Part shown: piece after piece, positions 975 to 47,115 of the stretch | Layout of the letters: every line of letters starts with the position of its first letter | How positions within the stretch are numbered: position 1 is the first letter of the stretch | Assembly: GCA_963930775.1 (NCBI GenBank) | Contig: OZ005689.1 | Location: 15,376,923 to 15,440,922 of the forward strand | Origin: Cliona cf. orientalis | Lineage: Eukaryota; Porifera; Demospongiae; Clionaida; Clionaidae | Length of the DNA: 64,000 bases | Reading direction: 5' to 3' | The notes under the pieces: model-generated | Database searches by the model: none | What the model was told of the DNA's origin: nothing | What the model saw: only the letters and a program-made list of their open reading frames with translations | Made by a program: the position numbers and the translations under genes

Positions 975-3900
975 CAGTACAATTGTGACTACTCGGCTGC
1001 CATTGAATGCCATACAAACGGTAAGTCTTCCTATACGTAATGGGGGCGTGGCATGTTATGTAGAGTACTATGGGACTAATATAGTGCAATTTTTCCATAT
1101 GGGTCTTGTCAGGTTTGTAGGGGAGTGGGAGAGATGGAGGGAGGAAGGGAGGAGGGGAGAGAGAGTACCGTGTATATTGTATTTTTCCAGCTGTCTCTGT
1201 GTGTGATGACTCACAACATGGCCAACTACCTTCAAATTGAAGAAGACAGTGATGCCAAAGGTACGTGTACGTATGTGCACACATTCTATAGTCAGACCGT
1301 TACTTATTGATTGAATGATGCAAGGCCATGCCTGTATATACATGTATGTGCTATAGTTATGTAGTAGTAGTAGTATACGTAAGAGACTAATTTTTATTTC
1401 AGTTGATAAGCTTCTTCTTCGCAAGTCCCCCAGTGGTACGGATGCCTCGCTGCGGTTGCCGTTCACATCAGGACAGGTGGCTACTCACAGATCTCCATCT
1501 TCCAGCTGTTTCTAATTAACAGCCAGCTGGTCCTGAGGCCCTTCAGCAAGTACACCTGTCCAATGGTCAGTGCTCTATGTACTATATGGAATCTATAGCC
1601 TCGCATTTGAGCTTTTTAATGTTTGATACTGAAGTTCCCAGGCCCATTCCCATTCTTGGAACGAGGCTATGGAATCTATCCAACGTACAATGTATAGACT
1701 CTAGCATTAATGATTATGTATGATCTGGATGTGCGTTTTTTATTGTGTTTTTTCAAGTCTCGTATGGCTATTTTTACAGCTACTCCACCATTTTTTTTCC
1801 TTTCAGGAAGTGTGCACGTAATAAGGCATTGCTTTGTTTGATATTCAGTGACTTATCAATAATTAACTTTCTTGTGTTTGTGTAAATTGTGTCTGCCTTC
1901 AGAACTCGAGTCTTGTTGACTTTTCGCTGACGAACCGTGAGTTGTGTGGAGTGTGTGTGTGCAGGAGTGAGGATGGGGAGGGGGAGGAGACCGTCGTCAA
2001 GAAAACTCTCTATGATGAGTAAGTCACCATGTTTACCTGTTTACTAAAGTACATGTACTGTACAACCCTCAATTTTTCCTAAGAAACTTTCATAGCACAA
2101 AGATTTTCGGATATAATTATGGTATTATAAGTTACCACATAGCATGTAAGAAGTAGCTGCCCATAAAGAAAGTCACCCTCTATATCTTAGACACTCGAAG
2201 ATTAAGTAGTACGTCTTTCATTTTTCTTTCAGTGCCATTCCTGGCTTCTGGCAGGCTGTGAAGCTGCTTCCAGACCCACCTGCAGAAGTCACTGTACTCA
2301 AGCAGAAAGACCCTAGGGTGAGTCGTTACACGTAACACATCAGTCAGAGACACCATAGTCGAGATCAGTAATTACTCCTTTAGTTCTCCCTAGCATACAC
2401 AAGGCATATCAGTGGAACAAGCCTTCAGTACAGAATTTCCTTCGATATATAAGTGTATAGGGAGATTTCAAAAGCTTTGGTGACATGCCTTAAATTTGAT
2501 TGGGGAGAACACTGTAGTAGTTGGTACATGTACTTCTGGCAACTGCAATATGCAAGCACTTAGTGACTAGCCAAAGTGTGCAATAGCTTCTGCAGTTTCT
2601 ATAGGTAAAATATGCATGTAATTTTGACCACAGGAAGCATACCTGGAGGCTATCTTCTACCCGGGATGGTTTGCATCGTCAGGAATCAGTCGTACCCTGG
2701 AGCTGTATGGAGTCAGTGAGGTGGAGGAAGGACAGCTGCCAATCATAACCACCATCAAGGTGGAGGCTGAGGTGAGTGTACATGTGAGGTGTTTCTTCAC
2801 AGTAGGAAGTAGAGTGAATATACACTGTAGATATTTTACATGTAACATAAAAGGTACTTTTTTCCTCTCTCCCTTCACACTATCTCTCCCTATCTCTCTC
2901 TCCCTCCCTCCTTCTGTTTCTTTGTGTGTGTGTGTGTGTGTGTGTTTCTGTTTTCCTCTCTTTTTCACTCTCCTCACTTTTCTACCTGTCCTCATTCTCT
3001 TTTCACTCTCCATGCCTCCCCACTTTCTGTCTTTACCTCTCTCCCTCCCCTCTCTCTCCCACTCTCTCTTCCCCTCAGCTCCATGCCTCTGCTGGTTCCC
3101 AAGAGCTCTCTCATGACGAGTACAGAGACCTGTGTATGCAGTGCTGGACAAAGTTCTACGGCTGTTGTAACGAGTACCACAAGCTGCTCTCACAGCCGCT
3201 GAACGTGTTTCTGGATCCTGGAACTGGAATGGGACTGATATTGAAGAAGGGTATGGCCTCATTTCTGAGACCGGATGATGTCATGATCAAGATAGCATTT
3301 AATGAGTATGGTAAGTAGATAAATCTACTCTTTGAAGTATGGACCTGTATACATTATTGTGCCAATGTTGTATACTTTGTATTACCTGTAGAATCGAAGG
3401 ATCTGCATCATTTTGTGAAGTGCATGAAGGAGCTCTGTGCCACTGTCAATGATGATGTCCTCGACATCTTTCTAATTGAACTGGGGTACCGGGGGCATCC
3501 TCCTCCCATCACCATGGCAACAGACATAGCAGCTGCCCTGCATGAAGAGTGAGTCAAACTTGCATGTATGTGCACGACTTCAGGCAAGGAAGAACTTCAA
3601 ATTTGATGAAACTGGGAAAGAGGGGAGGTATTATAGGATCTTGATGGCGCTTTTGCTCAGTGTAATCTTTAACCAAAGCACTTTTAGAACCCCTCCATTC
3701 CCACATCAAAAAGTACTGAAGGTGATACGTTAATTATATGAACCCTTGACCATCTCCCCAGTAGCTGCATAGTGTAATGGTGCTTGTGGTAAAAGGTCGT
3801 CAATAGAATGCGTACACATCGATCGATGCTCGCCCCAGAAATCATGGAGATGGCGTCTAAGATCGACTCTCAGCCTTGACAGCGACAAGTTTCGATGCTT

Positions 3901-5622
3901 CAATCACAGAGACGAACTCGACAGTACAGTATTCCTTCCGAACTTCAGGTTGGTCACGCTGCTGCAGTCGCGCGCGGACCAGCCCCTTGTGACAATGCGT
4001 GCTATATATAGCGCAAGGCTAGCTTTATTTATCCACGGCATTACGTAAGCCAAGAAAACACGTGAAGTTCAACCAACAGTACTTTTCATAGAAAGTAGCG
4101 CTCAGCTTGTAATGTATTCGCTGGATACACGCGTAAGATACTCTACATATTTACTGATTTTCAAGTCCCAGAAAGGCTCCAGCGAGGCCCTGAATTTTCT
4201 CATAATTACCTCATAGATTACCTAAGAGATTACACCATAGGTTTCATCATAATTACACCATAATTACCTCATAACCACAGAAAAGTAAATTGCTACTGGG
4301 AAGATAACTATAATAATATTATATCAATATCCCTGAAGTATATGCTGTGGAAAACAGCATTATACTGCTATTTTCTTCCGCAGAGGTGGTGACACTGGTG
4401 TAGCTTCACAGCTGAGCTCTGTTGACATAGAGACCAAGCTGGAAATGATGCAGACAACTCAATGGAGGAAGGCATGTCCTGCGCCCCCCTCTCCCCCTCC
4501 CTCCCTCTCTTTTTCTTATTTTCTCTCTCTCTCTCTCCCTCCCTCTCTCTCTTATTTTTTTCTCTCTGTCTCTCTCTCTCTCTCTCATTCTTTTCTCTCT
4601 GTCTCTCTCTCCCTTTCTCTCTTCTCTTTTCCCTTCCATAATAAATCACTTTCTGTCTATGTACATGTACATGTATAAATATTTTCCCTTGGTACACAGA
4701 TGGAGTTGATTACCAGTACCAGACGGTTGCAGCACAGCTGTTCGCCAGTCGCGTTGCCACAACAATTCTAGGCTCCGCCCTCGAGGAGGTGTGTCACTCG
4801 AGGGCGGTATTTTGCCGAGATCTGCTCATTCTTCTCTGCGTCCTCAAGTATAACTCTGTATATGAGGTAATTTTACATCATCATTATTATAAGTCTACAT
4901 GCACAGTGCATGCTGGATGGACTATTGTAGAGTTGATCAGTGATTCCACAACTAGTCGCCAAATTAGCCAATGGCTACAACTTATTCCACCTACTAACCC
5001 CTTCATGGAGTTTGACTAGCACAATTATATTGATTGTTGTGTGAAATAGAGATGTTTATGCATGTGATATGATTGTCATGTGACCTATGCAGGCTCCACC
5101 CACCTTGAGTAGTAAGTTCATCCCTCGTGTTTCTACTCTTCTGCTGAACTACTCCACCCTCCACTGGCTCACAACTGCCACGCCCTTCCAACCAACACAC
5201 ACTTCATAGTGAGTACTGAATCTAATACAGCGTATGGGGGAAAAATAATTTCAATTTTGAAAATACGCGTTTTTTTCTGGGTCGTCACTTGGTCCACTGT
5301 TATATAAACGTTCTGAGAATTCGTAAAATGCCAATTTCTTTCGTTAAATTGGATCATAATATATGCTGTATTTGATTATCCGGTAACTACGGTAATAGCT
5401 TTGTGGGTATAGTCTACCTGTACATACATTGTATGACTGACACGATTATGTACACGTACATGTACCAGTATTCATCATTAGCTATCTTTTTGTTTAGTGA
5501 TGCTAATTTGAAGCAGATGGCCTCACTTGAGATCTCGAGTCACTCCTCAAGACATGTGCCTGGTCAATCAGTCTATTGTGCACACATCCTGTTTTGTGTA
5601 TACTGTATAGCAGCAGGCCTAG
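975..5622 (+). CDS. NUP160: Nuclear pore protein NUP160, central part only (possible pseudogene or assembly-damaged gene)
   Basis: NUP160 is a scaffold subunit of the Y-shaped (NUP107-160) nuclear pore complex. Exons read: 975-1020 (weak), 1191-1260, 1403-1565, 1903-2018, 2233-2317, 2634-2771, 3079-3310, 3392-3548, 4384-4475, 4700-4866, 5093-5208 and 5498-5622 (3' limit uncertain). All have GT-AG borders and compatible phases except one break. Signatures shared with vertebrate NUP160 include SIFQLFL, DPREAYLEAIFYPGWF, WTKFYGCCNEY followed by ILKKGMASFLRP, and CRDLLILLCVL. About 500 codons are covered, the end of the beta-propeller and the start of the helical region. Inside 1403-1565 the frame must change at the five-C run at 1427-1431: upstream residues (DKLLLRKSP) and downstream residues (VAVHIRTGGYSQISIFQL) both align with the family but lie in different frames. 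N-terminal exons would lie before the window. No C-terminal exon was recognised between 5622 and 7491. The gene is therefore either truncated here or split by assembly. Confidence 0.85.
2870..3070. repeat. CT-rich intron stretch with (TG)n
   Basis: A pyrimidine-rich tract in the NUP160 intron, with about 12 TG units near 2921-2944. It merges into the polypyrimidine tract before the acceptor at 3078. A similar CT tract fills about 4480-4635 in a later intron. Confidence 0.85.
3752..4290 (+). repeat. Dispersed repeat family R2, copy 1
   Basis: It lies inside a NUP160 intron. Its 3' half (about 3990-4280, starting GCTATATATAGCGCAAGGCT) recurs nearly identically at about 44767-45055, and in reverse orientation at about 19720-19935. 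Its 5' end (AGTAGCTG...GGTAAAAGGTCGTCAATA) recurs near 51740-51785. It carries several TCATAATTACCTCATA-like units at its 3' end. No coding potential was recognised. Confidence 0.75.
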
Positions 5623-7491: not shown

Positions 7492-8404
7492 TCAATAAAT
7501 TGTTTCATAGATCTTCTCTTCAACTAAATGGTCCTTCACTATTTCATAAGCAACATTATTATCCAAAGCAATGAGTTGCTCAGACTTATAATCCATTAAA
7601 TCGCCATATGATGGATTAGTTTCAACTTCAATATTTGTTATTGTATTCATGGTTGTGGCTGAACATGAATTACTCAAGCACATATCACTAGATGGGATGG
7701 ATGCCTGTATTAATAATTTTTTTCAATAAGGATATACACTTACTTCATCTTCTTTAACTGTCCATCTGTGGACGTTCGTAATTTCCTGAGAATAATGTTT
7801 ATTAGTGCTTCATGAGATAGAGGGACAATCTGACTTTGACTTACTTAACAGCTAGGTATATCAGTATCAAGACAGTGAGGCCCACTAGAGAAAGAACGAC
7901 TGCAATGTATGTTATTATTGATAATTCAACTGAAACAGGTGGCTGAGAGTTGACATCCTAAAAATATTACAGTGCCGTATTAAACATAATTAAGATTAAT
8001 TTACTGTGTCTCATCTCCACTCAGTCCAAAGCTTCTGTGGGCAGGTGGCTGGAAATGGTTCTGTAATCATAACTTTGGTAGGGAATGGTCGTCAAAATCA
8101 AAAGTTCAGCTGTTAAGAAATTGAAACGATAGACTTTTGCTGGGGGGGGGGGAGACCAAATTTGGTAAAGGTTGTCACGTTTATGCACACGCGTAGCCCT
8201 GCCACTTACGTAGTGCGTGAGTGGAAACATTGCAAATGCATGGCTTCCCTATACAAACATACGAGGAAACTTGGTGCTATGTGAATCTTAAGAAGTTTCA
8301 GGGTCAGTCCATTCTGTGTGCTCACGTGAAACATTGTCATGAATAGCTAGTTTCCTAGAATCTCAAACACTGTTTACATTAATTTTTGTAACTTAGTGTG
8401 TAAT

Positions 8405-8435
<31 letters not shown>

Positions 8436-11400
8436 TGGGGGGAGGGGAACGTACGTGCATGTTTCATTTGTTCTCAAAACTTTTTGCCCTATCCCGGACC
8501 CTGACAAACATGTGCTCATGTGTTGGTAAGCATGACATAAGGAAGTATATCTTTAAGTGCTGATGCAATAAAATAAATCTTTAGTACATGAACTTACGAA
8601 TAATAGTATTCCAAAGTGTCCGAATTGTGAGCACTCACACACTACCTTACTGCCATCCCTGACTACCTCCCTACAATCTATAGATGACCATGCTCCAATT
8701 GTTCCTATCAATTTTTAATACAATGAAGTTTTCATGATTTACTAATAATTCCTATTAGGTATTGCATTATTACCTTCTAGAGTAGGATTCCATCTAGCAC
8801 AGTGTTTTTGATAGATATCCACCTATAATATTTTGCAGAAGAACATAAATAGCTAATTATTGTGAGGAATACTCATTTTATGTCCCTCTTACAGTGCTTC
8901 TGGAATGAAATGTAGCCCTAACTCCCATTGGAAGAGTGCCATTCTTTGAGCAAGTAATCCTTGCTCCAATAATCAAGGAAGCAAGTTGATTTGTTGAATT
9001 TCTTGGTTGAAAGAAAGTATCCAAAAGAAACATTGAATAAGTGAGTCTCTGAGGTTGGGAACCAGAACTGCAGTAATCTGCTAATTCCTCCGAGATGTGG
9101 ATTGCTGCTGTGGCATTGCTCGAAATTTCCATTTCAGTTTCAACTGTCATTGTCGTAAAATCAGAAATACCACCAGTGACATTCATAGCCTTTTCAATTG
9201 AATCTAAATTAATGACAAATGTCTCTCCTTTAAAGAAGTTTTGGATATAAAGTGCAAATGTTCTATATGAATAGACTGTGGCATTTTGAGATGATCCAAT
9301 TTCAACCCTGTCCAAAAACTTTGCCAGGCTTTGTAGCAATCTGTACATGTGGAGCTGCTTCATAATCTGTTATTATCCTGTGTATATTATACCTTGAAGA
9401 TGACAGATTATTCATCCCACTTTCCAGAATAGTATCTCTGTTTACTAATTGAAGATTATCAATTGCTCTTAAATAATTAGCTCGTATCTGCATGAAAGAT
9501 TATAATTAGTGACTAGTCAGAGTCTTGGAAAAAAGATCACTAACCATCGGATTAATAATTGCTTCATCAGTCAGATTTTCAATGACTAAGGATGTTAAGA
9601 ATACATCTTTACTGGTGAAATTTCCAGATTTTGTTGTAATGTTTGCAACTGCCTCTGCTCTTGTTAATGACTCTCCATTTCTTTTCTGTTTTTGCGAAGG
9701 TCAAATTGTACAATCATAACAATTAATTACATTTTTAATCAAAGACTTATATAGCAAGAAATTTTCAACTTTTGTGGGTAGACGATAATTTTCATTATAA
9801 TAAAGTATGCAGGATTAACCTTTGTGGCTACACTACTAGTTGATTGCTAAATTTCTCACTATAGTTACAAATACAAATAAAGGGAAATGTCTATGAACCC
9901 TTCTCCCGTTCAATTTGCCCCGATGTGCGTTTCCCGATGCGTGAACCCCTCTCCCGACATTTGTTTTCCTGACACGTGAACCCCTCTCCTAATGTGCGAT
10001 TTCCGATGTGTGAACCCCTTTCAGCAGCGTGTGATTTCCAACGTGCGAAACTTCTGAAACTGTTCGGATATATTTTATAATTATATGACAGGTAGCTATG
10101 CTGTATCTACACAAAGTAGGTTTTCATGCATGCAGGTCCTGTATACAGCTAATTACACAACACAAATCAACAATAATTATTAAATTAACTAGTATAATTA
10201 TTATTAAAGAGTTCGGAAGTGCCTGATCAGTGCACTTCTGATGACATGTGTAAACCACTGAACGCTTCAGGAGACAAACACACATCAAGAAAAACATACC
10301 TCTGACAAGGCCAATGTGGAAAAAGTATGGAGCGGGAAACCAACAAAGGGACAACGCATGTCGGAAAAAATGAAGTTGGGAAAAGTACTGGGGAGGAAGA
10401 TGAACGTCAGGAGAGGGGTGACCATTCACGTGGCGGAAATCGCACATCGGGAAACACACGTCATTGGGGCAAGATGAACATTGGGATCAATGTGTATCAC
10501 GGATAGTGTCCTTCTCGGCCCCTTTAGGTAATGCCAGAGATATTTAATTAATAAAAGTGTTAATATTCTAGAAGCACCTATTCTAACTAATCTGTGGAAA
10601 CAAAGCTGGCAAAATATCACTAATTTATTTGTCAATGAGTTTCTACTTGATATGTATAGCTAAACATTATAAATAATTATAATACTTACCTGAGTAGCTA
10701 AGCTACATAGTCGGTTCGTCACCTCATTTGTAACTGAATCACATTGATTATAGTTTACATTTTCCCATTGTCCACCCTGAGAGTAGGTTCCACCACAAGC
10801 TCTACTTGCCATTTGCCCGGATTGTAAAACATCTTCACAGGGACATGGTAGTTGAATCTCTTGTCCAATAGCTAATTCTGGCCACAAAATATCATCAACT
10901 GTATCAGTATTGCAGCCATCTACAAGTAAAATATCATTATTACAATAGTAATTGGGCAGAAACCGTTAACAGTTATTAAAGCTGCTTTAAAAAGGGTATT
11001 AAGAAATGTGATGTTGCAGTTTCTATACAATGGTGTAGACACAAAAATTTAATAGTTCAGAAAGCATCATGTAGTGTTATAGTTAACCTGTCTCATATAG
11101 ATTCTACTCTCAGGTTTCAGTATACGAAATTCAAGCCTTTCAAAGAAGCTAGCATGCAAGCTGGGAATAGCTACCTCCATGGCCTACATACAAGGTCAAC
11201 CAACTGAAAAACCTTTGGATAATGATCAGCCTAACAGCTACTGACTAGCCCAGACTCAACGTTATATATGAAATCTATAACTTCATTCAAAGCAGGGTCC
11301 TTACCTTTCATGTTCAATAGTGAATGTCACAGTGATAAAATTTCACATGATATTATTATGATAATATTAATTTTAAAGTATCTCATCCTCGTTAAACATT

Positions 11401-14400
11401 TGAATTGTATTCGAGTATTAAATCAAGCCCCTGTTATGTGCTTCCCAGCTAGATCAGATTCTCTAGATGTTCTCTAGGATAGTACTTATCAACCATATCA
11501 ATTTTCAAATTGATAGATTTGACAATATTTGCTATGCCTATGAAACAGTAAGTGCCATGACATATCCAATTGGCAGATGTGTGTGGGGGGGGGGGGGGGG
11601 GGGGGGCGTGGAGTGGGGAAGGAAGAAATATTATTCTCTGAATATATATTCAACCACAAATTTACCTCATGCATGCAGCCCATAGCTAAAAGGCCTTCCA
11701 TTAAACATATTATAGATAACTTGGTCGGCCCATGCAGTACCCCTTATAGATATTGTGGTTTTATCCAGCAATAAGTGCATGACAAAAATAAGTAATTGGG
11801 TATAACATGCAGCACATTATTAAATTTATAGGTGGGATTTGGACAAACTTTTCTCTACTTACAGTGATAGCTACCTTTGGATTGCTATTAGATATCATTC
11901 GAGTAAAAAGGGAAAAGCTTTTGGATACCCTATAGCTAGCTAACTATGATGATAGTTATAAAAGCACTCATTATGATTAATTTTGCATGTGTGTACTATG
12001 CTTACCATATCTAATCAGATTTGTAACTGCAAGAAGCGCAGGTGCACTTTCCAATGCATTATGAACATGAGTATACAGAGCTGTTGTTAAAATATTATTA
12101 TCTGATAGTGTGGTAATTAGAAGTATCGCCTCTTCACTGTTCAGATAATGAAATAATATTGAAACCTAAATCAACGCTGTTTCAACATTAAACATAATAT
12201 CTTATTACCTTGATGTTTCATTTAATAACATTTGAACAGCATAAATGCCAGTAGCATAATTCATTCTATTACCAGGATCAGTAATGATGGCCATAACCTA
12301 AAGAGATTAGTATACACAAGCACACTAATTAGATCAGTGAAAAATTGTTTAATGTCACAATCATCGGATAATGTGGCATGATTAGTACACTTAGTTCATG
12401 CACAAACAGTATCCTGCCTATGCATTAGTACCGTGTGCATGACACGGACTATATTTTAAGAAAACGATCGTCTGAAAACTACTTTTCGTTGTATAACATA
12501 GTATAAATATCATAGAGAGTAACTAGAGAGATAATCATAGTATTGATTTTACTCATTACCTCATCAAATTCTTGATTTCTAGCTGACTGATTAAACATCA
12601 GTGTTGCAATAAACTGATTGACACCTATTATTGCTTTTTTAAAAGGCATAATGTAGTGACCAGAAAATTATGAAATACCGGATATACTGATCACAGCTGA
12701 ATCTGATGAAGTTTGTCCTCTGTTATTATAGGCTTGGCATGAATACCTCCCTCTATTGTTAGGCAATGTTTCTGCGATATATAAGAAGGATTTCGTTTCT
12801 CCTGCTATACCCTCTCCATCCTTGTACCACTGATAGGTTGGAGGAGGATATCCCTGAGCAGTACATGAGAGATTAACTGCCGTTGCAATGTTTACGGTGA
12901 TGCTCGATGGCACTTCCACAAGGACTGGTTTCGTTTGTGAAATATTCACCATAATTTCTATGGTTTAATGTGAAACTAATGGTCTATGATTGTTAACAGC
13001 AACCACCTAATTACCTTGGGTACAGTTTTGACCTGTATGCAAGTCTGAGCATATGCATGTGTACCCCTTGTCTAAATCAATACACGTGCCACCATTCTGA
13101 CAGGGATTACTTATTTCACACTCATTGATTTCTGTCACATGATAAATGACTGGCGTAATAATACACACAAATAATATTTAGTATATGTAACACCTTACCA
13201 TGAACGTAGATGTTGATCTGGCTGGAAACTGCATAAAATCCTGGAATATCTGTGCTTACATGGCATGAGTAGGTTCCACTGTCTGATGATGAAACACTGG
13301 ATAACATCAACCTGCTGATTGCAGTTGGCCTCTCAAGGGATTGCAGTGAGTATGTGAATGTAATGTTTGTACGTTGACTATTGATGATAACTGCACCAAC
13401 ATTTTGGTCTCTCTTTATCCACGTTATATTGGGCGAAGGAAAAGTAATTACTTCACAATCCAAAATAGCTGTATCTGATTCATTGTAATTCATGTGCCCC
13501 GTGATCACCACAGTCGGAGCAACTACATCATAAAAATAGCAGCTAAACATCTATAATATTAAAACAAGTATCTTACTCTGAATAGAGAGTGTCGATGAAG
13601 CCTGACTGCTGAGTTGGCCTGTTGTTGCAAGGCATGTATACATCCCATAGTTTGATAATCGTACATCAGTTATTGTCAGAATGCTGTTCCTTTGGGTTGG
13701 GAATGTAACCAAATATCTTGGGTCAAGTGATCCAGCAGCACTGGATAGTTGAAATGTTCGTTTTGAAGTCATATTTGTGAAGGTCCACAGAATGCTTGGG
13801 ATTTCAGATGACCAAACATTGCACTGAAATTGTAAGTTAAGCGTTTCTCCCATCCAAACTACTGTGCTATTAGCTGGTTCTATAAGTGCTGTAATGTTAC
13901 CTGCAGCAGCACATAGTATAAAATGAGTTTACAAGTCTAGTGCTTTGTAGTTTTAAACCTATTGGGCATGGAAAGTAATCCGTACAACAGTCTTGAAATA
14001 CAGGACATAGTGAATCGCAACTGCACGTGGGTGGGTATCCTCGGCATAATCCACTTGTACAACAGCTATTGTAGCCAGCTGCAACACAGCTTCCTGTATT
14101 ATATTATTATGCAAGATGTTATGAAGGTTACATTTACCATAGCCTCCAGGTGTATTCACATAATAACTACTTGACAATAAACGTCTGATGACCAAGATCA
14201 AGCATAGCATAATAATTATTGTTGTTATTATCATGAATTCACACAAATGAGGCTTATATTGCATAATAATTACAACAACATAGTAGTTGTGACATCATTT
14301 TAGTTGGATAGTTAGACTATTATCATGTAATGAAAAGAGCAGTGACATAAATAAAAAGAGTCATACATGTTAGAAGAATTAATATACTTGCTCTATGAAT

Positions 14401-17400
14401 GTACATGTAAAGGGGGGCTTCTTGGTGGCTGCATGCACTGATGGTATAAATACAATGCTATAGATGATAAATGCCAAATGTACTCACCCACCTACATTTA
14501 TATGGGATGATGTCACAACTACATAGTAAGTACTACTAGCTAGTACTAAAATTAATACCGTGTTCCAGAGGAGCAGCGGTTGAAGGTGAAGTTGTTCCTG
14601 TGTTGTCGATCAATTCAATTATAGTTTCAAGTTTAAATGCTAACATACCTGATGAGCAGTTTGTACCATCAGAATCTAACAAAAATCCTTTGTGGCAAGC
14701 ACATGTGTAGCCCCTAGGAACATTTGCACTCAGCAAGCACATGTGACTGCAACCACCATTATTCCCTTGGCAGGGATTGCTACCTATATGAATTGCCAAT
14801 AAGCTTGAGTAGCTTAAATAATGAGTCTATAAAGCCCCATTTACACTAGGCCTTTAAACCAGCTTGGAAGCCAGCTTAGTTAAATCTGGCTTAGTGTAAA
14901 TGCGCTAAACTGCTTTACAAGTCGCCTTCTAAACCGGTTTGTAAACCACGTCTGGGAGGTTGTTCGAAACCGGTTTCAACCCTGTTAAGGATATGTTGCT
15001 ATACAAACAGTCCATGTGTAAGCGCTCTAAGCTGGCTTAAGGCGCTTACATAAGCTGGCTTAAGGTCCTACGTATAAACGCAATAAAGCGCATTCCAAAG
15101 CAGTTTAGTCCAAGCCAACTTGTATGTGTAAACGGAGCGTAAGACTGCCTTGACTATAGGATTATTGGACAGCATTAGTTTTACTCACTACAGTAACTGT
15201 TAATTGTTAGCTTTAATAGCTAGCCCGCTCTATAGTTGGGCTCAACTATTTCTACTGAAATATTACCTGCTGGCTGTCGTTCCTCTGCTATGACTTCTAT
15301 TCCCATAGTATTTCCACATAAGTTATCATAGATGACTTGAACAGTGCCTCCAGTTTTAGGGACAGCATTAATTCCAGTTAAGCGATCAATGAAATATATC
15401 ATTTCTCTGAATACAGTTATACCAAAGGGCTGATAAATGTTAGAATCTGCAATTATTGTCCGGCCTGAACCATCTGTATTGGAACTCTCAATTCTATACT
15501 GGTCTCCATCAATCCAGTAGAGTGTTTGTGTTGACAGATCAAGAGTTATTCCATTGGGCCATACCAAACCAGTGGAGTGAAGCACAATCCTTTCTGTTCC
15601 ATCCATTGATGCTTTTTCAATCTTTGCCACAGTTCCCCAATCACACCAATAGAGCCACCTGATACAAGAAGACGCAATAATATTAGCTATGCACTCTTAT
15701 GAAGTGGACAGAATAATTATTATGTATACCGGTTGATGGGATCAACAACGATGCCCCTTGGATTAGTATCTGCTCCAGTATTGATAAGAATTGTGTAGTG
15801 GCCCAGCAAAAGGTCCAGTACTCCAATTCTGTCATATCCATTGTCTGTCCAGTATAGCTTATCCGCAATCCAATCAACTGCAATGTCATCTGTATGCATG
15901 TTTGTATTATGAGTCTTGTAATTGATATCATGTGATCGTTACTTGGCTAACCAACTACACTTAAATCCCTATCAAGTAACATGAGTGCACTGGTTCCATC
16001 AAGTTCTGATCGCCATAGTTCACTTCTTGTACTCCAGTATAAATAATTCATCCTGCAGTGAATAGCATCATTAGGCTAATACTATTATTATTATAATACA
16101 ACTATTCTAACCTGTAATGAAAATCAATTCCTAATGCAGAATCAAGACCTGATTGGATTGTCTTGGTTCTTGCACCAATGAGACTGAGCCTCTGAATGTA
16201 CAATGAGTTGCTAAATACAAGCTGAGGCCTTGTGTTATCTGTATAAAAGCATAATGCTGAACATAATCATAGTATAATACAGGTTGTTATAATTATTATA
16301 ACATTGCTGTGGGCATGTGTCCATAATGTCGTCACAGCAATCAGCATAAAGATGGCAGTCACTATCACAATAACATGTTCCTGAATCTCCAATACATTGT
16401 TCACCAATGCAACAATGTGAATAACCCACTCTTCTGCAAGAACCTATAGCAGAATGAAATTCATATTAATGTAAGCTTAGAGGTGGTCGATGTTACCAAT
16501 CGTTGTCACTGGAAGTACAGATGTTACTCTGGATCCTACAGGAATATTAATATTTTATAACCGTAAGTACAAACGCAAAACGCACAGACTAGTTTCTCAC
16601 CTTCAATGCATGTTAAGGTGTCATTGCTCATAAACATTCCTTCAGGACAATCACAGGAGTAACCTCTGATATCATTAGCACTCAAAAGGCAAAAATGACT
16701 ACAACCACCATTATCTGTGCCACAAGGATTTACCGCTACCAAAACAAATTAGATATATAAATAACTATCACTTCCTTCCGATTACATGTAATAATATCTA
16801 TACCTTGCGGTTGTCGCTGTATTGAAATCACACGAAGACCATGGGGATATATAAACTCACAAAAGTTGTCGATGCCATATATTGTTGTAGGGGCTTCTTC
16901 TCCAGATTTGTTTACAGAACGCACTCCAAATGTCCAATCAGATAAGTATAGATTATTTGCAAGCAATGATAGTGAAAATGGACGGTCAATACCAATGTTG
17001 GTAATCACTCGCCTATAAGCTCCATTCACAGTAGATGTTTCAATTCTGTGAAATGTTTCGTCACCCCAGTATAGCATTTGGAAGTTGAGGTCTATTGCAA
17101 GAGAGTATGGCCTTGTGATATTAGTATCATGTATTGTTGTTTTGCTTGAACCATCCATTGATGCTTTCCTTATCCTGGCAGCTGTACCCCATTCTGTCCA
17201 GTAGAGCATGCTACGTACATTAAAATGCATAATCTCCAAGATAATTTTAGTGAAATACAATGTCAAGGATTAGCTACACAAACCGTGTTGTTGGGTCCAA
17301 AACAATTTCCCTCGGCTTTGCATCAGTAGTTGTCATCAGCAACATTTTATATAGATGCGAATTAAGGTCGAAAACTCCAATCCACCTCGTTCTGACATCA

Positions 17401-19245
17401 GTCCAATAGATTTTACTGCTTATCCAATCCACAGCTATTCCTTCTGCTCATTATTATTTATTAGGATAGAAATTAAAGTATGCAAATTCTGTGCAAATTG
17501 TATACATGTAGCTTCGTCAGTGTAGGCCATACCATATTATTCAAATAAGCTTTGAATTGTATAAATTAAGAAGCTTTGAAATTTGGTATGACTATAACAA
17601 TTGTAAGCTATACCTTGCCATATTAAACTACCTGGTTGTATCACACTTTGGTTAAATAGCAGAGCTACATTACTCCCATCAAGGTTTGATCTCATGATAG
17701 AATGTCGAATTTTGTCTGTCCAATATAAGTAACCCTGTCTGTAATGACAAAACATTATTACCACCACACACAGGTGAAGCTATAATAATACCAAACCTGA
17801 AGTCAAAATCAACTGCCACAGCAAAACCAAGCCCACTAACCAACGTCTTGACTCTGTTTCCATCAAGACTGAGTTGATGAAGATGAAGTTGGTTAGCTAC
17901 CACGATGTAATCCGATGCTTGCAATTCCCGGGTTTCTATATATTTATGATCAATGCAATAATAATATGTTATATTATTACTAATTTAATTAAATTTAGCT
18001 GACCTCTCTTTGACAATTTTTTAACTGTGTCAACTTTAGTTTTTTCAATGCTTGTCTCAGAACTACCATAATTGTCATTGAGTGTGATATTTATAGGTTG
18101 AGACCAACTGTGAAAGCTGTTGGCTATGAAAACTCTGTCATGTTGCATTGAATTGATTTCACATAGGCAAAATTAATAATCATATAGAATTATACCTCAA
18201 GATAAAATTTGACTGAATTGGCAATTGTATCTTAAAAGATATACTATCACACTGCTCTTTGTTTAATTTAGTCACCAACACTGCATTCTAAATAAATTAA
18301 TTAATATTAATTTTGCCATTAGTACCAAGCTAGAATGAAAGCAAAGGAGTGCAGAACCCTCACCGCTACATGGATGCAAAAATTTGACAAGCAAGTATCA
18401 AGTTAAGGATCTCAGCTATTGCAAACATAATATAATTTATCATAGTACATTGTTTAGCTGGCAAGATGTCATGCTCCAGGAATGATGATCAAGTAATAAA
18501 AACTTCATCTTGGATGTAAAAACAGCACTCCGTGTGTTGGTCTCAGAAATGATACACACTTGAAGGTAGACAGCAAAAATATCCTGAACGGTTCCTTCAT
18601 CAGCAGTATTCAGTAACACTAAATTGTATGTGATAATGGTGATTCAATTAAACATATACAATGTCGTGATCATTGTCACTACAATGTTGAAACCATTAAT
18701 AACTTTGCAACAGTTATTCTTTACTGTCATAGATTTTAACGATATTATTCTTAATCCTACTATTATAATTATGCCCAGTAGCAATTTACTTTTCTGCATG
18801 CGGTTATTAGGTAATGATAATGTAAGGTAATTGCCAGAAAATTTTGGGTCTCCGTGGAGGCTTTCTGAAACTTGTAAATTAGTGTACTATGACCTCAGGG
18901 TTTCATCCACCGTGACCCCTCCTCCCCCATTAGCTGTTAAGATGTAGCCTCGTTCCCAGGCTCTCCCCCTCCTCTTTATTTTATACGCATGATCATATTT
19001 ACGCGATACAATAATTTCGCGTAAATATGATCGCGCATATAAAATAAAGAGTAGGGGGAGAGCCTGGGAACGAGGCAGGTTAAGATGCACTTTATAGAAT
19101 CTGATGTCACTGAGGTATTATGTGATATCATCTAAAGTTTAAGTTACTATTACTGACTGTTTGCACTGCAACGCAAAAACAATATGCTCCCCTCCCCTAC
19201 TACCTCTCTTTCTCTCTCTCTCTTTCTTTTGCAGGGGAGGCGGAA

Positions 19246-19279
<34 letters not shown>

Positions 19280-21353
19280 CTAAAAAAAGTTAAGATCAGT
19301 GGGCCTTGCCCCCCCCCCCCCCCCCCCCCCAAACTGGATGGCTAGAGCTAGACCTACATTATTATTCTGATTGATGTATACTGTATTTCTAGCAACTCAC
19401 CTACTATTATAATAATCAATTCAAGTTTCGTCAAACCAAAATTCTAAATTATGTAATAGCCATGAAGGTGGACCTAATTAGCTAGCTACAAGCTCTGTTT
19501 ATTGAACTGTACTAATTAAATATATGACATTAATTTTGTTATAAAACGTGTGGGTGCCTGACTGCCCCCCCCCCCAAACTGACCTACCCTTAGCTGCCCC
19601 TGTTTTGGGAGGGGGGGGGAAGCTTCTCCCCCCTAATGAAACCCTGCATGTGGAGTATCTGATGCATGTATGCAGCGAATACATTACAAACTATGAGTGC
19701 TACTTTCTCTTACGAGTAGCTACTGCCGGCCAAACTTCACGCGTTCTCTTGGCTGCCCGTGGATAAATAAAGCTAGCCTTGTGCTATATATATAGCATGC
19801 AAGCTGTGTGCCTATCGAGTTCGTCTCCTGTGATTGAAATTTGTCAATGTCGAGAGTCCATCTCTGCGATTGAGGTGCCGGCATCGATGTGGCTTGGACA
19901 GTGTACACACTATATTGACAACTATTTACCATAATATAAGAACCATTAGAATTATGCAGCTATATAGCTATACATATACTGGGGATGTGGACAAATTTTT
20001 ATGATAAAATTAATACAATGTCGTCATGAGCACAGTGAACTTATTATGTTTCACATTTAGTTTTGATATAGGGGTTATAATCATAATATCGATATCCACT
20101 CTCCTATTTGGATAGCTATTAGCTAGCTATAGTGTTCTAACAAAACGTTTTGTTCCATTTCCTCATTCCATTATAATCGGGATTTGGTAGTAATTAACAA
20201 GTGATTCGTTAATTACTACCAAATCCCGATTATAATGGAATGAGAAAATGTTCATACAATTGAAATACTACACAATTTTCATCACTAAAACTCCAACAGA
20301 ATTAATGATCATAGTGTGCATTCCTTCCAGTAAAAAATGGTTGACCGTTCAGTTTGGGATTTTGGTATAAATAATATTATAGCTCTCCTTGTGACATCAA
20401 TAATATTATTATTCATACCATTATTTCCCAAATTTTTTGTTTAGTGATTGACAAATACATGTTATCTTGCACATAATATCATTGAATACTATAATTATAA
20501 TATTGTAGCAATGGTATTAACATTGTTATTGATTATTCAGTTACAGATACTAAATTGTGACCTACTCCAGGAAAATGGACTGCTCAGCGTAAATACTCAT
20601 TTTCCAAAATTAATTATTATGAATACAATCTATATTTTCTGCTTTTTATCTATCAAAAAAGTGAAGGTTTGCTGAAATATAACCATGAGCTTAATTCCTC
20701 TGATTGAGACATGTAATTTAGTACCATAATAAATTAACGATTCTATCTACCTAAATAAATATTTGGTCATAACATAATTTCTGATCGTTTTCCTTCGAAA
20801 CCTGCGCATGCACCATTGTAGCTACTCATAAATAGAGTCATCTATCCATGCCAAATCTCAATATTCATTATATGGTCACCGTTGATTGTTATCACAATGT
20901 TTAATTGTGAACATTAGAGCATAGCAATATACCGGTACTTATAATTGCATACATGCATAATATTGTTATTTTACATAATAGCTATCTTTTATATAGGGCG
21001 AATACTTGTATTAGCCATTGCTATTAAAGTTTTATGTGTCCTTGCATGTACGCAAAATTATTATATAAAAAATACATTTAAGTAATATTCTCTATCATAT
21101 AAGTTTATAACATACCAGTAAATTCTGATATTTGTTGGGCGCTTAAACTGCTATGATTCACTGAGTAGGTTGGCGGTAGTAGCTGTCTTGATCCAGAATC
21201 ACTTGAGACATTACTGATCCCAAATAACCTTGCGATGTTAATCTCATTACAGCTATGGTGAAACTGTGGACAGTAATACACTGCTTCAGCAGCTACGATC
21301 AAACCTAAAATAATGGCTGCATTCATAAGTAAGGATGTTTCCACAAATTTCAA
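7492..21353 (-). CDS. Large adhesion-GPCR-like single-pass receptor (YWTD/EGF/SMB/Ig/HRM/GAIN-GPS)
   Basis: Thirty-four exons (high to low): 21353-21116, 18618-18449, 18287-18196, 18116-18004, 17935-17797, 17738-17632, 17443-17284, 17210-16804, 16735-16601, 16535-16497, 16443-16303, 16238-16112, 16052-15961, 15889-15730, 15658-15267, 14783-14649, 14597-14559, 14093-13959, 13900-13577, 13522-13199, 13131-13015, 12957-12679, 12633-12560, 12297-12209, 12136-12006, 10919-10690, 9685-9545, 9487-9393, 9340-8893, 8822-8774, 8677-8598, 7957-7845, 7785-7744, 7687-7492. Total 5,553 bp, 1,850 codons plus stop; phases close throughout. Order by residue: signal peptide 1-24; unknown 25-204; YWTD propeller 205-475; EGF to 520; SMB 534-580; second propeller 581-837; EGF to 882; SMB 896-940; Ig 941-1048; Ig to 1156; EGF to 1195; Ig to 1288; helical part to 1386; HRM to 1463; GAIN to about 1691; GPS about 1695-1734; one TM helix about 1745-1770; tail to 1850. 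Expected role: cell-surface adhesion or signalling (inference). The GPS lacks the usual HLT/S cleavage triplet. TM2-TM7 of an adhesion GPCR are absent. Confidence 0.85.
8150..8350 (+). repeat. Dispersed repeat family R3, copy 1 (intronic)
   Basis: It contains GGTTGTCACGTTTATGC, GTAGTGCGTGAGTGGAAACA and TTGCAAATGCATGGCTTCC. These match copies at about 32165-32335, about 26880-27090 (partial) and, reversed, about 45740-46035. It lies in the receptor gene's intron between the TM exon and the GPS exon. Confidence 0.7.
8408..8446. repeat. Poly-G tract
   Basis: About 35 nearly uninterrupted G residues inside a receptor-gene intron. A similar tract lies at about 11584-11606 in another intron of the same gene. 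Confidence 0.9.
9890..10495. repeat. Imperfect foldback: two inverted repeat arrays in one intron
   Basis: About 9896-10050 carries repeated CGTGAACCCCTCTCC and GATGTGCGTTTCCCGATG units. About 10300-10490 carries related units in reverse (GGAGAGGGGTGACCATTCACG, AATCGCACATCGGGAAAC). Both lie in the intron between the HRM exon and the first GAIN exon. Confidence 0.6.
14834..15145. mobile_element. MITE-like element, GCCCCATTTACAC family
   Basis: It begins GCCCCATTTACACTAGGC and ends TGTGTAAACGGAGCG. The interior is built of alternating AAACCAGCTT and AAGCTGGCTTA blocks, giving strong self-complementarity. A relative lies at about 34322-34565. It sits in the intron between the second propeller and its EGF exon. 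Confidence 0.65.
18951..19077. mobile_element. Palindromic MITE, CCTCGTTCCCAGGCTCTC family
   Basis: The left arm CCTCGTTCCCAGGCTCTCCC and on to about 19000 is matched by its reverse complement ending GGGAGAGCCTGGGAACGAGG at 19076. The arms are about 55 bp with a few mismatches (ATATTTACGCGA / TCGCGTAAATAT in the centre). A larger relative lies at about 52372-52716. It is inside the second intron of the receptor gene. Confidence 0.85.
19228..19345. repeat. G-run/C-run repeat (GGCGGAAC family)
   Basis: AGGCGGAAC is followed by about 30 G, a short spacer (AAAGTTAAGATCAGTGGGCC), about 20 C and AAACTGG. Relatives are at 5783-5880, 19555-19640 (reversed), 42925-43070 and 51425-51475. Confidence 0.8.
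19720..19935 (-). repeat. R2 repeat, reversed partial copy
   Basis: Read on the minus strand it contains AGGCTAGCTTTATTTATCCA and CCAAGAGAACGCGTGAAGTT, matching the R2 copies at about 4015-4080 and about 44785-44850. Confidence 0.65.
20162..20244. repeat. Perfect 37-bp inverted repeat with 9-nt loop
   Basis: The arm 20162-20198 (beginning CTCATTCCATTATAATCGGG) is exactly complementary to 20208-20244. The 9-base loop is AAGTGATTC. It lies in the second intron of the receptor gene. Confidence 0.95.
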
Positions 21354-27589: not shown

Positions 27590-28200
27590 TTGTGGATTGC
27601 AGATCTCCAGCAACTATTATCTCCAGGAGGATGCTACACGAGATTGCGAGGAACCTCCGCCGCACAGGAAAGCCACTTCCAGAAATGAGTAAGCTCTCAA
27701 TTAAAGTGTATGGTAAAGATGGAAAAGAGGTGGGCATGAGCTTGTGTGTACTTCCCAGCTTGAGGTTAATATCCAAGCTGATGAGAAGAGAGCCTGTGTA
27801 CCTGTGATTGTACAACCGGATAGTGAGCAGGGATGCTTATATTGGGTACTAATGCTACTTCCTTGCTAGAACTCCAGTTTTTGAGGGCAAATAACAAGCC
27901 TTTACGCACGGGTACTGAACCAAAAGAGAGTGTCACTCGTGTTCGCTTGGTGAGAACCATATCTGTCCCGAGCCAAGCTAGTAAGATTGTCAAAGCCGAG
28001 ATTGAAAGCCAGACTTGAATGTGGCGTGAGTATTCCTGAAACGGTGTTGACAATTGGCGAGAACAGAAGAGTGTATATTCCATTGCAAAACATGCAGGAC
28101 ACTAGAGTGAAACTTTGTAGAGGAGCTGAACTTGGCGTTGTTGAGACTTTTGTAGCCATGTCTCCTAGTGACCATGCAACTTGCATGAGTTAAGAGAGTC
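27590..28200 (+). pseudogene. Gypsy protease and connector remnant
   Basis: The 27590-27810 frame shows a retropepsin-like stretch (TIISRRMLHEI, SIKVYGKDGKEVG) whose expected catalytic D-S/T-G has been lost or shifted. At 27830-28195 two frames give LGTNATSLLELQFL and TIGENRRVYIPLQNMQDT, typical of the protease-RT connector. The stop and frame changes show it is inactive. Confidence 0.65.
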
Positions 28201-28229
28201 AACTAGTTGAGAGCAGTTGTGCTAAAGTC

Positions 28230-29063
28230 ATGGTTGATGAGAAGTATGACAATGAGCGTAACCAAATGTTGTTGGGAGCCCTTAAGCTGAATCAGGGTGA
28301 TCTCACGAACAAGCAGTTTAACAGCCTCAAAACACTTATGTTAGGAGCGTCAGATGTTTTTGCTCTTGATAATTCTGAGCTTGATTGCACCAATCTAGTC
28401 CAATACACCATAGACACTGGTGATAGTCAGCCGATAAAACAACAGCCTTACCACACTCTGATGATTTATTGTGAGCAGATGGCAGAAATGATAGAGGATA
28501 TGCAAGCGCAGGGGATAGTACAGCCGTCCTCAAGCCCCTGGGCAAGCCCAGTAGTCCTCGTGCCAAAGAGGGATGGTACAGCTCGATTCTGTATTGATTA
28601 CAGGCGCTTGAATTCGGTTTCGAGGAAGGATGTTTATTCGTTGCCACGGATTGAAGATATTTTGTCCACTTCAGGAGAAGCCAGATATTTCACGACTCTA
28701 GATTTAGCCACTGGATTTTGGCAGATCGAGCTTGACGAGTCTTCTAGACCTAAGTTAGCTTTCACCACACACAAAGGACTGTACGAGTTCGTTCGCATGC
28801 CTTTCGGATTATGCAACGCTCCTACTACATTCCAAAGGTTAATGCAGGTGGTGTTAGCAGGGCTAGAATGGAGCAGTTGTTTTGTATATACATCAATGAT
28901 ATTTTGGTGGCATCGAAAACTTTTGACGAGCATTTGGTTCATCTCATCAACCGAGGAAGGCATAGCTCCAGACCCAGCCAAAGTTCAAAAGGTTCGAGAT
29001 TTTCCCAGTGCCTACCGATGTCAGCAAGCTTCGACAGTTTTTGGGACTAGTGTCTTATTATAG
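28230..29063 (+). pseudogene. Gypsy reverse transcriptase, broken
   Basis: Clear RT blocks: SSSPWASPVVLVPKRDGT, RFCIDYRRLN, YFTTLDLATGFWQI and FVRMPFGLCNAPTTFQRLM. The reading then shifts frame. In the shifted frame (28811-29000) the polymerase motif reads YINDILV where the family has YxDDILV, so one catalytic Asp is replaced by Asn. Part of the thumb region is also missing before the RNase H frame. It is not functional. Confidence 0.85.
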
Positions 29064-29490
29064 GAGATTTGTCCCAGCCTTTGCTAAGATAGCGGCACTT
29101 TTGCATTCATTGACTAAGAAGAACTCGCCTTTCTGCTGGACGAGCGCATGCGACGATGCCTTCTGTGAGCTAAAGGAATTACTATGTGATGCTCCCGTGT
29201 TAGCCTATCCACGTTTTGGCCTGAGCGAGGAGTTTGTGATTGAGACTGACGCTAGCAAAGTCGGCTTAGGAGCAGTGCTCGCACAGAAGCAACCCGACGG
29301 TACTGTGCATCCTATTGCCTATGCGTCACACTCTCTACAGCCTGCAGAACGGAACTATGAGATATCCGAGTTAGAAACCTTGGGATTGGTATGGGCTGTC
29401 AAACACTTCCGTCCGTACATTCTCGGTTACCCATGTACTGTGTACACAGACCATGCAGCCTGTCTATCTCTCCTTAGATCCTACTTGTAA
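29008..29490 (+). pseudogene. Gypsy RT thumb and RNase H domain, interrupted
   Basis: It reads KLRQFLGLVSYYRRFVP, then the RNase H core FVIETDASKVGLGAVLAQ, the SELETLGLVWAVKHFRPY helix and VYTDHAACLSLL. The frame ends at an insertion (29490). The remaining RNase H end (MNLTIKHRSGKKNANADALS) resumes at about 30130-30240 in another frame. Confidence 0.85.
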
Positions 29491-30429: not shown

Positions 30430-31660
30430 ATAGTGGCTGAGAGTCCAAAGTTCGACCTGATCAATGGAGTTCTGTACTTCGAGTATCCGAGCTCTCCTCA
30501 CCAATGGTGCATCGTTGTTCCAAAGCACCTGCAGCAGATGATATTGGAGGAAGCACACTCAGGTCAATTTGCCGGCCACTTTTCAGAGAAGAAGGTCTAT
30601 GTCCGTCTCCGCCGCTACTATTGGTGGAAGGAATTCGCTCCGATGTTCGTCGTCACGCCAGAGCGTGCCTCACTTGTGTGACCAGGAAGGGTGGACGGAA
30701 GCCTACACGACCCCCACTACACCCTATCCCGGTAGGTGGACCCTTTCATCATCTTGGGGTAGACATACTCCAACTTCCGCTGACAAGGAACAGTAATCGA
30801 TATGTCGTAGTATTTGCCGACTACTTAAGCAAGTGGATCGAAGCATTTCCAGTTCCAGACCAAACTGCAGAAACAATAGCCAAGCTGTTAGTTGATAAGA
30901 TTGTTTGTGTTCATGGAGTACCGGAACAGTTACTCTCTGACCGTGGAGCTAACTTTTTATCAGACTTAATTCTCGAAGTGTGTTCCCTCCTCGGTATAGA
31001 AAAGTTGAATACGTCTGGCTACCATCCTCAGACCAATGGTCTTGTCGAGAAATTTAATTCCACTCTCATCAGTATGATCTCCAAGAGCTTCACCAGGAGT
31101 AATGACTGGGACGAACGACTGCCATTTCTACTCTTTACCTATACTATAGGGTATCTGCCCAAGAGAGTACTAAAGGGTCCCCTTTCTACCTTCTGTTTGG
31201 CAGAAACCCACGTCTTCCTACGGAAACTACCCTAACTCAGCCGAGATATATTTACACTATCGACCTTGAAGACTACAAAACAGCACTTGTTTCACATCTT
31301 GGAAGTGCTTGGGAAGCTGCAAAAGCTAACATTCAGTCCACTCAGAAGAAACAAAAGCCATATTATGACCAAAAATCAAAGGAGACATATTTTAATGTCG
31401 GAGATCGTGTACTCTTGTACATGCTGAATGAAGTAAAAGGAAAGGACTGGAAATTGAGTCGACCATTTCACGGCCCTTATCGTATCATCAATTTAACTGA
31501 TTGTAATGCCGAAGTCCAACTTGTCGATGGTCAGGAAGAACCAATATTTGTATCACTAGATCGGATCCGGCCATGCCCTAGTGAGCTAAGCAATGATGTA
31601 TGTTGGACAGGTCGTGGCAAGAAACATTTTAAGCGACAAAAAGCACGGAAACAGTAGAGC
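30430..31660 (+). pseudogene. Gypsy integrase, frameshifted
   Basis: 30430-30660 encodes the HHCC zinc-binding start (EEAHSGQFAGHFSEKKVYVR). 30640-31230, in a second frame, encodes the DDE core: FHHLGVDILQL (first D), LLSDRGANFLS (second D) and YHPQTNGLVEKFNSTL (E). 31400-31660 encodes the C-terminal GPY/F-like part (FHGPYRIINLTDCNAEVQ). The triad is retained but the frame is broken at least twice. Confidence 0.85.
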
Positions 31661-47010: not shown

Positions 47011-47115
47011 TGAAGCACGGACAGGAAGTTATGAATTTTGGAGAGGCTGCTTGCTGGAGTTCAAGGCTGAGTTGCGATTCAGAGTCGAAAAACAAACGCG
47101 GCCGAAAATAATATT

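Follow-up and report, generated by a model that had tools for sequence, protein, structure and literature searches.

Does a gene that joins LDLR-type propellers to the membrane-proximal domains of an adhesion G protein-coupled receptor (GPCR), and that encodes one transmembrane (TM) helix, represent a receptor newly assembled on a single membrane pass or a seven-transmembrane (7TM) receptor that has lost six of its helices? The question is raised by a 64,000-nucleotide stretch of the genome of the sponge Cliona cf. orientalis (assembly GCA_963930775.1, contig OZ005689.1, positions 15,376,923 to 15,440,922 of the forward strand), referred to here as the window. The receptor gene lies on its minus strand, from window position 21326 to 7492. 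An earlier note on this DNA had favored the first answer. However, the same ectodomain plan was found on complete 7TM receptors at two other loci, C14 and C18, and therefore the single pass is most readily explained by secondary loss, not by a new fusion. We consider it very probable that the gene is an adhesion GPCR descended by loss of TM2 to TM7. The overall explanation, which adds to this loss an inferred function for the remaining single-helix (1TM) protein, has a probability of roughly 0.6.

Gene model and domain order

The gene was predicted from genomic DNA, with 34 exons chosen by hand and tested by script. All 33 introns are of the GT-AG type, and the phases close over all junctions. 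The exon count and the closure in phase thus stand as first proposed, but the length differs: the coding sequence is 5,460 bp and encodes 1,819 residues, with a single terminal stop and no internal stop, and the earlier model, of 5,553 bp and 1,850 residues, was 93 bp longer. The predicted protein consists of a signal peptide, two modules of YWTD propeller, EGF, and SMB, the series Ig-Ig-EGF-Ig, HRM, GAIN/GPS, one TM helix, and a 78-residue tail (Table 1).

Pfam reported Ldl_recept_b in two blocks with an FXa_inhibition-type EGF behind each, three Ig domains, the second and third of which are separated by an EGF, HRM, and GPS. The HRM was above the cut-off on an isolated piece and reached 25.2 bits on a long piece, against a cut-off of 26.2. 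The two SMB units were below the Pfam cut-off and by this measure are suggestive; the SMB cysteine pattern is present after each EGF in C14 and after the EGF in C18 and in a further relative, C16. These matches bear out the domain order that had been claimed. Compared by sequence with solved structures, the C-terminal half was closest to ADGRG2, in an alignment that spans GAIN, GPS, and TM1 and stops at the start of loop 1, and the GAIN domain also aligned to ADGRG6. GAIN/GPS thus appears, by sequence, to adjoin TM1 as in adhesion GPCRs. The N-terminal half has the YWTD propeller followed by EGF of the LDLR family, and the best solved-structure matches of propeller 2 and its EGF were LRP2/4/6 and LDLR. 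When the GAIN half was compared with a large protein collection, none of 7,996 scored candidates reached an E value of ≤0.001; few animal proteins are probably in that collection.

The least certain parts of the model include exons 1 to 4 (about 165 residues; best E value against C14 and C18, 0.34) and exons 23 to 25, between Ig3 and HRM (best E value, 0.16), neither of which had a convincing match in those two genes. There are two candidate acceptors for exon 34, 17 bases apart. Acceptor 7687 retains the tail frame, whereas 7704 shifts the frame to a stop after about 10 residues; 7687 is preferred because its frame ends in a peptide common to paralogs.

Seven-helix relatives in the same genome

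In the assembly, family profile searches yielded 113 GPS, 14 HRM, at least 70 Ldl_recept_b, and at least 162 7tm_2 matches. Inspected by eye, the matches listed placed a propeller and a GPS together at three places: the window, C14 at about 2.68 Mb, and C18 at about 5.65 Mb. The window protein aligned colinearly along C14 and C18 by tblastn, with ectodomain identities of 21 to 60% per segment. The open reading frames (ORFs) of C18 follow the order propeller, EGF, SMB, Ig, EGF, Ig, HRM, GAIN, GPS, with one propeller module; in C14 the order is the same, but the propeller-EGF-SMB module is present twice and Ig domains are more numerous. Spliced models of the 3' parts of both genes close in frame and give complete 7tm_2 matches, with E values of 3.6e-28 (C14) and 4.2e-27 (C18).

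A fourth, diverged propeller-bearing relative lies at 2.080 to 2.090 Mb of C16 (L054, G000:C16:2080601-2089600). Its order is propeller, EGF, SMB, Ig, Ig, EGF, Ig, HRM-like, GPS-like, and then several hydrophobic TM-like frames, and it includes a stretch that matches the GPS-to-TM3 part of C14 (E value, 6e-15). In the pieces of C16, Pfam gave GPS (E value, 0.0063) and SMB below threshold and reported neither HRM nor 7tm_2, and colinear tblastn is what points to C16 as a probable member. Because the propeller ectodomain order recurs in C14, C18, and C16, this plan is an adhesion GPCR plan, and the proposal that a new receptor was put together around one membrane pass is not upheld.

The subfamily extends further. 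At 13 loci, a TM2-3 exon of ≥79% identity is accompanied by the last exon, which matches from its first residue onward for 164 residues or more with ≥52% identity; one of the 13 has an in-frame TGA. A locus on C2 is a fourteenth member. The GPS of the window gene is 50 to 62% identical to those of five subfamily loci, versus 27 to 35% for six outside loci, two of which overlap. In pairwise comparison, the ectodomain plan, exon phase, stub of intracellular loop 1 (ICL1), GPS identity, and C-terminus all group the gene with 7TM members. Seven of the subfamily's 7TM genes are clustered at G000:C10:6424019-6538640. Three of its tails were read; L050 and L051 end in EEHICDDAC, and L046 has EEHIYDNVY.

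When 150 of the 162 7tm_2 matches were used, 22 of the 113 GPS loci, the window gene included, were without a 7tm_2 match within 3.5 kb downstream. Seven of the other 21 were fetched; six have 7TM sequence past the start of TM2, and the one on C2 ends in TM2. Five more (four on C10 and C12:4508693) have a match to the TM2-3 exon. These 12 of the 21 made up the comparison; the other nine may include further 1TM members. In the C2 member (L041, G000:C2:5969695-5972695, 349-621), the TM2-3 exon breaks inside TM2 (KLRTSIHGQILINLSLALMGVY, followed by other sequence and a stop), a second, seemingly recent break near the same place.

A single helix without TM2 to TM7

A Kyte-Doolittle scan of the receptor found the signal peptide and one helix, and nothing else. 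This helix corresponds to positions 3 to 36 of the 250-position 7tm_2 model (20.5 bits; cut-off, 20.6) and lies within the ADGRG2 alignment. Its likeness to TM1, and the single pass followed by a short tail, are therefore as the earlier note described them, and the protein does not have the seven-helix domain of class B receptors. The two introns after the TM1 exon, of 59 and 56 bp, cannot hide TM2 to TM7, as had also been argued.

Neither the window nor the 8.9 kb past its low-coordinate end (L038) contained TM2 to TM7 when searched by tblastn with C14 and C18 queries at an E value of <1. The same queries matched all seven test loci, that of C2 over 22 residues only. As no TM2 to TM7 were found at the locus, the gene does not conform to a 7TM gene that yields a 1TM isoform by alternative splicing. 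The TM1 helix is 36 to 40% identical to those of four subfamily members.

Probable traces of a loss of TM2 to TM7

The window gene shares the codon phase at the end of its TM1 exon with C14, C18, L041, L042, and L044. In the latter five, the next exon opens with loop 1 (KLRTSIHGQILINL in C14, QLRSSIHGQILINM in C18) and continues into TM2; it extends to TM3 in C14, C18, L042, and L044 but not in L041. Window exon 33 matches the 5' end of the C14 TM2-3 exon (KLRTSIHGQILINL), and a donor site then interrupts it.

The other end of the presumed gap is marked by the C-terminus. Tails of 7TM relatives end in VEEHIYDNVY (L044, on C10), DEENIYDDVY (C14), and DEEHIYDDAW (L042). With the last ten residues of the window protein anchored at the stop, the score was reached by 0 (L044) and 7 (C14) of 50,000 shuffles. 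As controls, 3,861 ends of ORFs with 30 or more codons were drawn from fetched loci, the window among them, after exclusion of 13 loci with family last exons or neighbors; the score was reached by 0 (L044), 0 (C14), and 1 (L042) of these. Intron 33 was also considered as decayed tail sequence and gave no signal.

Absence of the GPS cleavage residues

In many, though not all, adhesion GPCRs, the GPS carries the motif H-X-S/T, in which His acts as the base and Ser/Thr as the nucleophile, according to the accessible part of PMC13062082. The window gene lacks this autoproteolytic triad and has QF/G instead. The corresponding triads are QL/A in C14, L042, L044, and L041, YI/A in C18, and EL/P in C16, so that all seven triads read, in a subfamily of at least 16 (the 13 loci, C2, C16, and the window gene), are without both cleavage residues. 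The five loci outside the subfamily with a visible triad (L001, L002, L005, L006, and L043) have HLT. Since the cleavage residues are missing, the members read are predicted from their sequences not to self-cleave. Such a state has precedents: uncleaved adhesion GPCRs are known, for example, ADGRB3 (PMC13062082, in the part available), and the accessible text of PMC12488864 describes cleavage-dead ADGRE2 as having the same steady-state surface level but a lower maximum in a synchronized release assay.

A possible route and function

Most simply, a single deletion of about 1 kb, with one end within the ICL1/TM2-3 exon and the other in the portion of the last exon that encodes the C-tail, would have removed TM2 to TM7 and some of the tail, and a new intron of 56 bp would have arisen at the joint; the size of the deletion and its single-event nature are taken from the layout of C14. 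What remained would be an ectodomain of LDLR propellers, SMB, Ig, EGF, HRM, and GAIN, the old TM1, an ICL1 stub, and a shortened, tyrosine-bearing C-tail. We infer that the receptor would be expressed and would stand uncleaved at the surface, where it could bind the ligands of its 7TM sisters.

The closest functional precedent appears to be the 1TM isoforms of Cirl/latrophilin, which likewise set an adhesion GPCR ectodomain on one helix. In the accessible part of PMC13197933, which cites Bormann et al. 2025, the Drosophila Cirl 1TM isoform, which arises when an intron is retained, appears to use the ectodomain to pair with the 7TM form; the title of the cited work calls this isoform required for 7TM function. 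The Cirl 1TM form, as that source presents it, comes from a gene that also makes the 7TM form, whereas at the locus studied here no TM2 to TM7 were found, and the tail looks derived from a 7TM tail. Among engineered truncations of ADGRE2, the 1TM form arrives at the cell surface but those with two to six helices do not (PMC12488864, accessible part), and a stable 1TM product is therefore plausible. Because of Cirl pairing and ADGRE2 surface delivery, a partner or decoy role is favored among functions. The receptor could be a gene-encoded counterpart of the Cirl 1TM isoforms that uses its ectodomain to pair or compete with its 7TM sisters, and its tail might recruit tyrosine-motif adaptors or endocytic machinery. 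By analogy, we tentatively suggest a partner or decoy function toward sisters of the C14/C18 type. No less tentative is the fuller proposal of an obligate single-helix adhesion GPCR, in which one paralog of a propeller-bearing subfamily had its TM2 to TM7 deleted and was kept as a dedicated, noncleavable coreceptor or decoy for the 7TM sisters.

If this explanation is correct, a member of a receptor class whose hallmark is seven helices can lose six of them and persist. The gene would be a natural experiment in which adhesion and the functions of the tail are parted from G-protein coupling, and 1TM and 7TM genes matched in ectodomain type would be at hand for asking whether 1TM partners are needed, as reported for the Cirl isoforms. 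Adhesion GPCR ectodomains would also be extended to LDLR propellers.

Several observations weigh against loss followed by such a function. Pairing with 7TM sisters is put forward by analogy, and since ectodomain identity to C14 and C18 is 21 to 60% by segment, shared ligands are a presumption. TM1 by itself does not separate the subfamily from outsiders, being 45 to 48% identical over shorter stretches to the outside loci L001, L029, and L043, and no match of TM1 to C18 was reported. In the anchored comparison, L042 was weaker (32 of 50,000 shuffles), and the C18 tail did not match (15,466 of 50,000 shuffles; 860 of 3,861 ORF ends). Unanchored, the whole tail was weakly similar to its relatives, with the score reached in 140 (L044), 1,042 (L042), 46 (C14), 33 (C18), and 431 (C16) of 5,000 shuffles. 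A profile of six paralog tails, from which four further fetched loci were excluded because the pattern used yielded no tail, failed to recognize the window tail (388 of 5,000 shuffles scored as high), and in two of these six tails Cys replaces the motif Tyr. A genome search with the window tail returned only itself. Descent of the tail is accordingly read from the C-terminal peptide, because the whole-tail matches are weak; outside that peptide, the sequence has diverged too far to be informative.

Alternative explanations

The main rival is an LDLR-like scavenger or endocytic receptor, in which the propellers take up ligand, NPxY and YxxPhi motifs drive internalization, and HRM, GAIN, and TM1 are a leftover stalk. 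The affinity of propeller 2 and its EGF to LRP2/4/6 and LDLR among solved structures fits this explanation, as does the tail. Like LDLR-family tails, it contains an NPxY motif, NPSY (0.5% of tail shuffles contain NPxY), along with three YxxPhi motifs, although three or more of the latter occur in 10.8% of shuffles. The partly fetched C16 tail, whose end is outside the fetched part, contains NPAY (0.6% of shuffles), and for this reason the endocytic explanation was weighted slightly higher. However, NPxY is absent from the tails of C14, C18, L042, and L044, and Pfam reported no LDL-A repeats in the receptor. We regard such a scavenger or endocytic receptor as unlikely, while taking it more seriously than any of the other alternatives.

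A decaying pseudogene might be expected, as losing six helices would end G-protein signaling, and the C2 relative does terminate inside TM2. Yet the 1,819 codons in 34 exons have no stop or frameshift and the splice sites are intact, at segment identities of 21 to 63% to relatives. An open frame that is intact despite such divergence indicates long maintenance, which makes decay very improbable.

Ranking below this is the explanation that TM2 to TM7 are present but were missed, either in more distant alternative exons or through an assembly or haplotype error at the joint of exons 33 and 34. The locus is known from a single assembly. However, in C14 and C18, TM2 to TM7 sit within about 1.2 kb after TM1, and no similarity to them was found in the searched region. 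Exon 34 runs in frame to a paralog-like C-terminus, and no second copy of the window tail was found in the genome. We give this explanation little credence.

Even less credible is independent exon shuffling, by which a single-pass LRP-like receptor would have gained HRM, GAIN, and TM1, with a tail of separate origin. The nonsignificant whole-tail profile match would be in keeping with such an origin, but the ectodomain order, the boundary and phase of the TM1 exon, the ICL1 stub, and the C-terminal decapeptide all agree with the 7TM relatives.

That the model joins two adjacent genes, one with propellers and Ig domains and one with GAIN, is the least probable of all, because the order is repeated in C14, C18, and C16 and the phases close at every junction, even though the model comes from genomic DNA only, the HRM exon (exon 26) lies between introns of about 1.1 and 1.0 kb, and exons 23 to 25 are without paralog support.

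Relation to known receptors

Like adhesion GPCRs (class B2), the receptor has HRM directly ahead of GAIN/GPS, followed by a TM1 homologous to that of ADGRG2/G6. The span from HRM to the TM helix is about 310 residues, compared with 280 to 330 in choanoflagellate and filasterean adhesion GPCRs in the accessible part of PMC12716839. It differs from adhesion GPCRs in being without TM2 to TM7 and in having QF/G in place of H-X-S/T. The C14 and C18 paralogs share with it the order propeller-EGF-SMB, Ig, EGF, HRM, GAIN and the exon boundary after TM1, and C14 alone of the two shares the C-terminal motif; they differ in keeping the 7TM domain, in the one propeller module of C18, and in the additional Ig domains of C14. 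With LDLR and LRP, the receptor shares YWTD-EGF modules, a single pass, and a tail NPxY, but it has no LDL-A repeats, it has SMB, Ig, HRM, and GAIN in addition, and its TM helix is that of an adhesion GPCR.

LDLR class B repeats are not among the many ectodomain modules named in the accessible part of a sponge adhesion GPCR survey (PMC4302439), nor among those named in the corresponding part of a choanoflagellate survey (PMC12716839); the LDLR-type propellers therefore set this ectodomain apart from the modules that those parts name. In the open-access literature, as far as it was available, we found no sponge adhesion GPCR with LDLR repeats and no receptor of this domain order. The earlier claim that none had been described thus holds against that partial body of literature. 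Adhesion GPCRs and their 1TM isoforms were known already; as far as this evidence goes, what is new is a gene that encodes only the 1TM form, by loss of TM2 to TM7, in a propeller-bearing subfamily.

Features of the locus and its neighbors

Table 1. Predicted exons of the receptor gene and the regions they encode
Exons	Region	Window positions	Strand	Basis
1	Start codon, signal peptide, N-terminus	21116..21326	-	Model and hydropathy; without paralog support
2-4	N-terminal region, no known domain	18004..18618	-	Model; least certain part
5-8	YWTD (LDLR-type) propeller 1	16804..17935	-	Ldl_recept_b 1.4e-22
9-11	EGF, linker, SMB-like unit 1	16303..16735	-	FXa_inhibition 4.9e-10; SMB E 0.029 (below cut-off)
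12-15	YWTD propeller 2	15267..16238	-	Ldl_recept_b 1.3e-25; LRP2/4/6 and LDLR chains
16-18	EGF, linker, SMB-like unit 2	13959..14783	-	FXa_inhibition 7.8e-11; SMB E 0.007 (below cut-off)
19-20	Ig1 and Ig2	13199..13900	-	Ig_3/I-set, three stretches counting Ig3
21	EGF	13015..13131	-	PF00008 9.2e-7
22	Ig3	12679..12957	-	Pfam
23-25	Interval from Ig3 to HRM, no known domain	12006..12624	-	No Pfam match, no paralog match
26	HRM	10690..10919	-	PF02793 5.7e-7 (isolated piece); genome search 1.1e-4, 30.3 bits
27-31	GAIN ending in GPS, triad QF/G	8598..9685	-	GPS 1.1e-8; ADGRG2 E 2.3e-12; ADGRG6 E 4.3e-9
32	TM helix homologous to adhesion GPCR TM1	7845..7957	-	7tm_2 positions 3-36, 20.5 bits
33	Probable remainder of a TM2-3 exon, ICL1 end	7744..7785	-	Position and phase as KLRTSIHGQILINL (C14) and QLRSSIHGQILINM (C18)
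34	Cytoplasmic tail, motifs NPSY, YGDL, YEIV, YETI	7492..7687	-	C-terminal ten residues match two of four 7TM-paralog tails

Exons of a NUP160-like nucleoporin gene (3037-5019, plus strand; PF11715, 1.9e-16; PF23345, 6.6e-7) lie tail to tail with the receptor gene. Matches to reverse transcriptase and RNase H mark a retrotransposon at 28194-29490 (plus strand), with neighboring ORFs to about 31657, those at 30441-31657 (plus strand) appearing integrase-like by reading only. A 759-codon open frame at 55528-57807 (minus strand) has an N-terminus that looks coiled-coil-like by eye. Two similar genes about 7 kb apart, at 40770-42010 and 47071-48807 (plus strand), show a VWA-like pattern (DVVFVLDGSASI) by eye in the ORF list.

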